A program made the translations under genes and the position numbers. Shown here one piece after another: positions 3,738 to 5,217 of a stretch of DNA of 5,217 nucleotides; position 1 is the first letter of the stretch, and each line of letters begins with the position of its first letter. Below the pieces are notes generated by a model, which was given only the letters and a program-made list of their open reading frames with translations, did not search any database and had not been told where the DNA came from. Source of the stretch: a bacterium (lineage in GTDB: Bacteria; Blakebacterota; Blakebacteria; Blakebacterales; Blakebacteraceae); the NCBI GenBank assembly GCA_025774205.1, contig JALGWK010000264.1, positions 1-5,217 of the forward strand, read 5' to 3'.

Positions 3738-5217
3738 AGGCCAAGATCATTGAATACGACGTGAAGGCCAGGGACATGCTCAAGCAGGGCGTGGATAAAC
3801 TGGCTAACGCCGTCAGGGTCACTCTCGGTCCGAAGGGGCGCAACGTTGTGCTGGACAAGAAGTTCGGCTCCCCTACGATCACCAAGGATGGTGTGACGGT
3901 GGCGAAGGAGATCGAACTGGAAGACCCGTTCGAGAACATGGGTGCCCAGATGCTGAAGGAAGTCGCCTCGAAGACGAGCGACATCGCCGGTGACGGGACC
4001 ACCACCGCGACCCTGCTGGCCCAGGCCATCTATGGACAGGGACTTCGGAACGTCACGGCCGGTTCCAATCCGATGGATCTCAAGCGGGGTATCGATACCG
4101 CCGTCAAGGCGGTGGTCGGTGAACTCGACAAGATGTCCAAGGATCTGACGACCGCGCAGGAGATCGCCCAGGTGGCTTCGATCTCTGCGAACAACGACTC
4201 CGACATTGGTGACCTCATCTCCCAGGCAATGGAGAAGGTCGGCAAGGATGGCGTCATCACCGTCGAAGAAGCCAAGTCGATCGACACCCACCTCGAGGTG
4301 GTCGAAGGTATGCAGTTCGACCGCGGCTATCTCAGCCCCTACTTCATCACCGATCCCGACAGCATGGAAACGGCGATGGAAGAGCCCATGATCCTCGTGT
4401 TCGACAAGAAGATCAGCGCGATGAAGGACCTCCTCCCGATCCTGGAGAAGGTCGCCCAGATGGGCAAACCGCTGATCATCATCGCCGAGGACGTCGAGGG
4501 CGAAGCCCTGGCGACCCTGGTGGTGAACAAGATCCGTGGTACCCTCAAGGTGGCCGCGGTCAAGGCGCCCGGTTTCGGTGACCGGCGGAAGGCCATGCTC
4601 GAGGACATCGCCATCCTCACCGGCGCCCGCGTCATCAGCGAAGAGACCGGTCTGAAGCTCGAGAACGCCACCACCGGCGACCTCGGCAACGCCAAGACCG
4701 TCACCCTGACGAAGGAGAACACCACCATCGTCGAAGGGGGAGGTACCAAGGACGAGATCAAGGGCCGGATCAACCAGATCAAGAAGCAGATCGAGGATAC
4801 CTCCAGCGATTACGACCAGGAGAAGCTCCAGGAGCGCCTGGCCAAGCTGGCTGGTGGGGTAGCGGTGATCAATGTCGGCGCCGCCACCGAGACCGAGATG
4901 AAGGAGAAGAAGGCCCGCGTCGAAGACGCTCTCCATGCCACCCGCGCGGCGGTGGAAGAGGGGATCATTCCCGGCGGCGGAGTCGCTTTCCTGCGCAGTC
5001 TGGACGGATCGTCAAGCGGGCGCTCACCGAGCCGACCCGCCAGATTGCCGAGAACGCCGGTCATGAGGGCTCGATCGTGGTGCAGAGGATCCTCGAAATG
5101 AAACAGGATGAAGGGTTCAACGCCCGCACCGAGGAGTACGAGAACCTGGTGGAGAACGGTGTTCTCGATCCGACCAAGGTCTCGCGCATCGCGCTGGAGA
5201 ACGCTTCCAGCATTGCC
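3738..5217 (+). CDS. groEL: Chaperonin GroEL (HSP60), reading frame broken twice as given; 3' end outside window
   Basis: GroEL is the ATP-driven double-ring folding chamber that works with GroES. Conserved parts are [34 protein letters not shown] (nucleotide site), GDGTTT (D86, matching E. coli D87), the apical domain, [15 protein letters not shown] (D397, matching catalytic D398) and PGGG (412-415). Numbering assumes an ATG at 3738 that lacks its T: with T restored, the reading is MAKIIEYDV. As given, codons upstream of GTG 3761 have no ATG, GTG or TTG before an in-frame TAG at 3722, so the first usable start loses eight residues. The conserved reading leaves its frame after LRSLD near 5005 and continues in another frame as [19 protein letters not shown] to the window edge. 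About 16 residues are absent at the junction, and read literally the protein stops at 5101. The last roughly 55 residues lie outside the window. The otherwise strong conservation favours sequence error or a very recent lesion over an old pseudogene. Confidence 0.93.

Follow-up and report, generated by a model that had tools for sequence, protein, structure and literature searches.

Does the bacterium behind this draft genome carry a groEL gene with two lesions, or do the lesions exist only in the deposited sequence? The question was raised by a stretch of 5,217 nt, which was analysed at its full length and is called the window in the following. It is the entire contig C48 of a draft assembly (G000) that comprises 3.09 Mb on 527 contigs and is 85.85% complete and 4.84% contaminated. 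The phylum was sampled with four genomes (G000 to G003), all of one family, and only G001 among them belongs to the same genus as G000. A match to Cpn60 was present in 60 of 60 relatives. As argued below, the organism very probably has one ordinary groESL operon with an intact groEL, and the draft wrongly joined two parts of that gene.

The groESL Operon and the Start of groEL

On the forward strand of the window, an inverted repeat of the form TTAGCACTC-N9-GAGTGCTAA is located at positions 3248 to 3274. The sequence was read directly and matches perfectly the consensus of the CIRCE operator, the HrcA-binding site upstream of groESL. It is followed on the same strand by an intact groES (3400 to 3690), which encodes 96 amino acids and matches the NCBIfam model of the co-chaperone GroES (NF001529, E-value 2.3e-39), so that the intactness of groES claimed in a first, sequence-only reading of the window was borne out. 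The groEL gene lies downstream of groES with the CIRCE element ahead of both, an order that is consistent with shared control, and the position of the element upstream of groES implies that groESL may be controlled by HrcA in this lineage. Further upstream, before CIRCE and groES, an intact coaX was found. In the upstream part of the window, an open reading frame resembling biotin-protein ligase (1387 to 2400) has repetitive insertions, GEAAPAG/GKAAPAG near the N-terminus and IGEIGRIGEVGKIGETG internally, and a UvrB-like open reading frame upstream of it has a similar short repeat at its end.

The beginning of groEL is defective. The codon that precedes GCC-AAG-ATC is GAG (3737 to 3739) instead of ATG, and an in-frame TAG is found five codons upstream of this GAG. 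An alignment with G001 and G003 revealed that the Shine-Dalgarno motif and the ATG of groEL, which are present in both, are missing from the window, and the loss of the start region was placed at 3735 to 3739 on the forward strand. The earlier claim that groEL carries two lesions was thus upheld, and the lost start codon is the second of them.

A Net Loss of 46 Nucleotides in groEL

The other lesion is situated at about position 5005, approximately 210 nt from the contig end. Translation of the window revealed that the GroEL frame starting with GCC at 3740 holds up to GAC at 5003 to 5005. Accordingly, codons 2 to about 423 were assigned to the first frame (3740 to 5005, forward strand), based on a match to the GroEL model TIGR02348 and on identity to G003, to which the 422-residue query is 86% identical. 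Beyond 5005 this frame encodes residues unlike GroEL until a stop codon at 5099 to 5101. GroEL resumes one base earlier, with GGA at 5002 to 5004 and CGG at 5005 to 5007, and the new frame remains free of stop codons to the contig end (5005 to 5217, forward strand; GroEL profiles match from model position 439). The match to TIGR02348 is split correspondingly, model positions 1 to 421 being found in one frame (E-value 1.5e-219) and 439 to 510 in the other (E-value 6.8e-25). Translation and split match together verified the frame change at about 5005 and the reading of the next conserved block one base earlier, both of which had been proposed from the letters of the window.

The size of the loss was determined by comparison with the intact gene of the family member G003. 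The stretch from GGGVA to PTRQI comprises 44 nt in the window versus 90 nt in G003, and it has a length of 29 to 34 codons in 95 other groEL reads. The net loss at the junction is therefore exactly 46 nt, which corresponds to 15.3 residues (46/3) and changes the frame. This agrees with the earlier estimate that about 16 residues are missing and that, for example, 46 or 49 bases were lost. The junction on the forward strand can be placed only to about 5003 to 5007.

Selection on Both Sides of the Break and Search for a Second groEL

A comparison with G001 yielded pN/pS values of 0.125 downstream of the break (62 codons) and 0.111 upstream of it. The values are alike on both sides, and therefore the DNA on either side stems from a gene under full constraint. 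This excludes only an old pseudogene, because a genuine lesion of very recent origin would give the same picture. In comparison with GroEL/Cpn60, the group I chaperonin (TIGR02348, PF00118), the locus shares the order CIRCE-groES-groEL, the GroEL sequence on either side of the junction and purifying selection throughout. In contrast, the deposited gene has no start codon, its equatorial domain is shorter by 46 nt or about 15 residues, and the C-terminus, which would lie past the contig end, is absent.

As an alternative to an error, a degenerating extra copy of groEL had been suggested together with a search of the genome for another complete copy. A profile search of the 85.85%-complete draft revealed no Cpn60 sequence other than the two halves on C48, and no match to window positions 4900 to 5217 was found elsewhere in G000. 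The three other members of the family were also searched, and no clear second intact groEL was found in them. A real, recently inactivated extra copy would require an intact second groEL among the sequences that did not enter the draft, which the incompleteness of the assembly would allow, and two groEL copies are indeed found in some bacteria (e.g., G030 and G049). However, the broken copy belongs to a groESL operon that has its CIRCE element and an undamaged groES, selection is not relaxed past the break, no second copy was seen in G000 and no clear second intact one in the three other family members, and the same excuse would be needed for rpoB and fusA, the lesions of which (described below) are just as severe. 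An inactivated extra copy is therefore very unlikely, and the suggestion of a degenerating copy was not supported by the assembly.

The groEL Region in Related Genomes

The groEL gene of G001 is not contiguous. It is split over two contigs, lying at positions 1 to 1345 of C315 and at the end of C189; the contigs share an overlap of 511 nt that is 95.3% identical and thus represents two variants. The 3′ part has a frame break of its own, a loss of 17 nt between ATCGTG and CCGACC. This break is found close to the place where the lost stretch of the window would end, but the lost stretches differ. In contrast, G003 reads straight through the linker in one frame, and the fragment in G002 does likewise. 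A gap of Ns in the groEL of G006 was also considered as a relevant break and was rejected as an ordinary scaffold gap.

That both G000 and G001 change frame within some tens of nucleotides might be taken to indicate that the two frames are connected during translation, either by programmed frameshifting or by bypassing. However, 46 and 17 nt of otherwise conserved coding sequence are lost at different sites, the frames that are resumed also differ, and G002 and G003 do not change frame in this stretch. In addition, no ribosome could restore lost residues, and the window also has no start codon for groEL. The probability of such recoding is virtually negligible. A related possibility is that members of the genus can live with a groEL that is broken or recoded here, two species having independently lost parts of the linker and surviving with the help of a missing second chaperonin or of unknown recoding; this is scarcely credible.

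The proximity of the two breaks, some tens of nucleotides, nevertheless is a point against the misassembly reading, and by a rough estimate two breaks this close would occur by pure chance in a few per cent of cases for a 1.6-kb gene. A common local cause is assumed, which could be a community or variants common to both samples, or a short repeat. Short direct repeats at the deletion ends had been proposed as a check, and such a repeat was found: GCGATCG is present twice in G001, 45 nt apart, at places that match both deletion ends. A match of this length was found at 0.8% of positions. The repeat is a hint only, because a clean repeat-mediated loss would remove 45 nt and remain in frame, while 46 nt were observed to be missing.

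Comparable Losses in Further Essential Genes of the Draft

A biological account would be conceivable for a draft in which only groEL is damaged, but other genes of this draft are damaged too. The rpoB gene of G000 has an in-frame loss of 63 nt at about position 9733 of contig C111, in the rifampicin region. The encoded RpoB is devoid of 21 residues that are present unchanged in G001, G002, and G003. They form the segment that binds rifampicin beside the active centre, which is near-invariant in bacteria, and its loss should be lethal. On the same contig, at about position 604, fusA (EF-G) has lost 31 nt, which shifts the reading frame, and the gene is intact in G001. Both losses are probably the result of misassembly. 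A further frame-changing loss, of 25 nt, was found at about position 1217 of contig C470 in a gene for a DksA/TraR-like zinc-finger protein downstream of dnaK. The dnaK gene itself is cut between two contigs of G000, the ends of which are identical over 114 nt, and rpoC is intact. A search for atpD as a further control gave no genuine AtpD, and this gene was left out of the comparison. Comparable defects are thus found in unrelated essential genes, and within about 35 kb of alignable sequence there are several gene-breaking differences in conserved genes of G000, all those found being losses of tens of bases.

Because the same draft contains similar small deletions in other indispensable genes, the lesion in groEL was ascribed to a mistake of the assembly. 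A cell with the lesions in rpoB, fusA, and groEL could not live, and therefore local misassembly is by far the best reading. An assembly or sequencing error had also been named as the leading explanation from the window itself, and the absence of another groEL from the assembly, the deletions in rpoB, fusA, and the DksA-like gene, and the independent break in G001 all support it.

Real deletion alleles, carried by part of a mixed population and picked up by the consensus while other cells have intact genes, would also explain a broken gene in a draft. Mixing of strains or species is indeed visible in G001, as documented by the two groEL variants. However, cells generally cannot do without groEL and rpoB, and deletion alleles of these genes should therefore stay too rare to enter the consensus; in addition, four or more genes would need such alleles at once. 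This explanation is thus highly improbable.

Under misassembly of an intact gene, a false join would have dropped the 46 bases at about 5005 and, at about 3737, the stretch with the start codon. This would most likely be due to a mixed metagenome, where the assembly graph breaks in conserved genes because strain variants or nearly identical relatives are present together; coexisting near-identical variants are presumably the usual reason for such broken graphs. The assembler might then bridge the breaks via a short false overlap, and a short repeat may have helped. We infer that reads would restore the lost bases, that the sample was a mixed metagenome, and what the exact algorithmic step was. 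On the evidence, the feature resides in the sequence and not in the organism, and it does not represent new biology.

Errors of this kind have precedents. Local assembly errors have been reported to result in incorrect protein-coding genes in uncurated metagenome-assembled genomes, and they were recognised by the absence of support from even a single read (Chen et al., 2020; PMC7111523). The present case resembles these errors in its short gene-breaking defects, in conserved genes that are split among contigs, and in the variants at contig ends, but read support was the diagnostic there, while sequence comparison alone was used here. In a survey of 2,307 proteobacterial genomes, many frameshifts in such genes, including groEL, were suspected to be sequence errors (PMC6403173). 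In both cases, the deposited genome seems to have a defective copy of the essential groEL, while the gene is intact in close relatives. In contrast, the survey treated complete proteobacterial genomes and suggested miscounting of homopolymers, whereas tens of bases are lost here. A literature search for groEL frameshifts in metagenome-assembled genomes retrieved no paper. The case is a warning that drafts of thinly sampled lineages can exhibit several lethal-looking deletions in conserved genes, and that bins of this kind call for a check of the reads before an essential gene that seems broken, or an RpoB that seems shortened, is regarded as biology.

As a minor observation on the family, the rpoC match on contig C318 of G003 is in two pieces, which have overlapping profile ranges and include one in-frame TAG.
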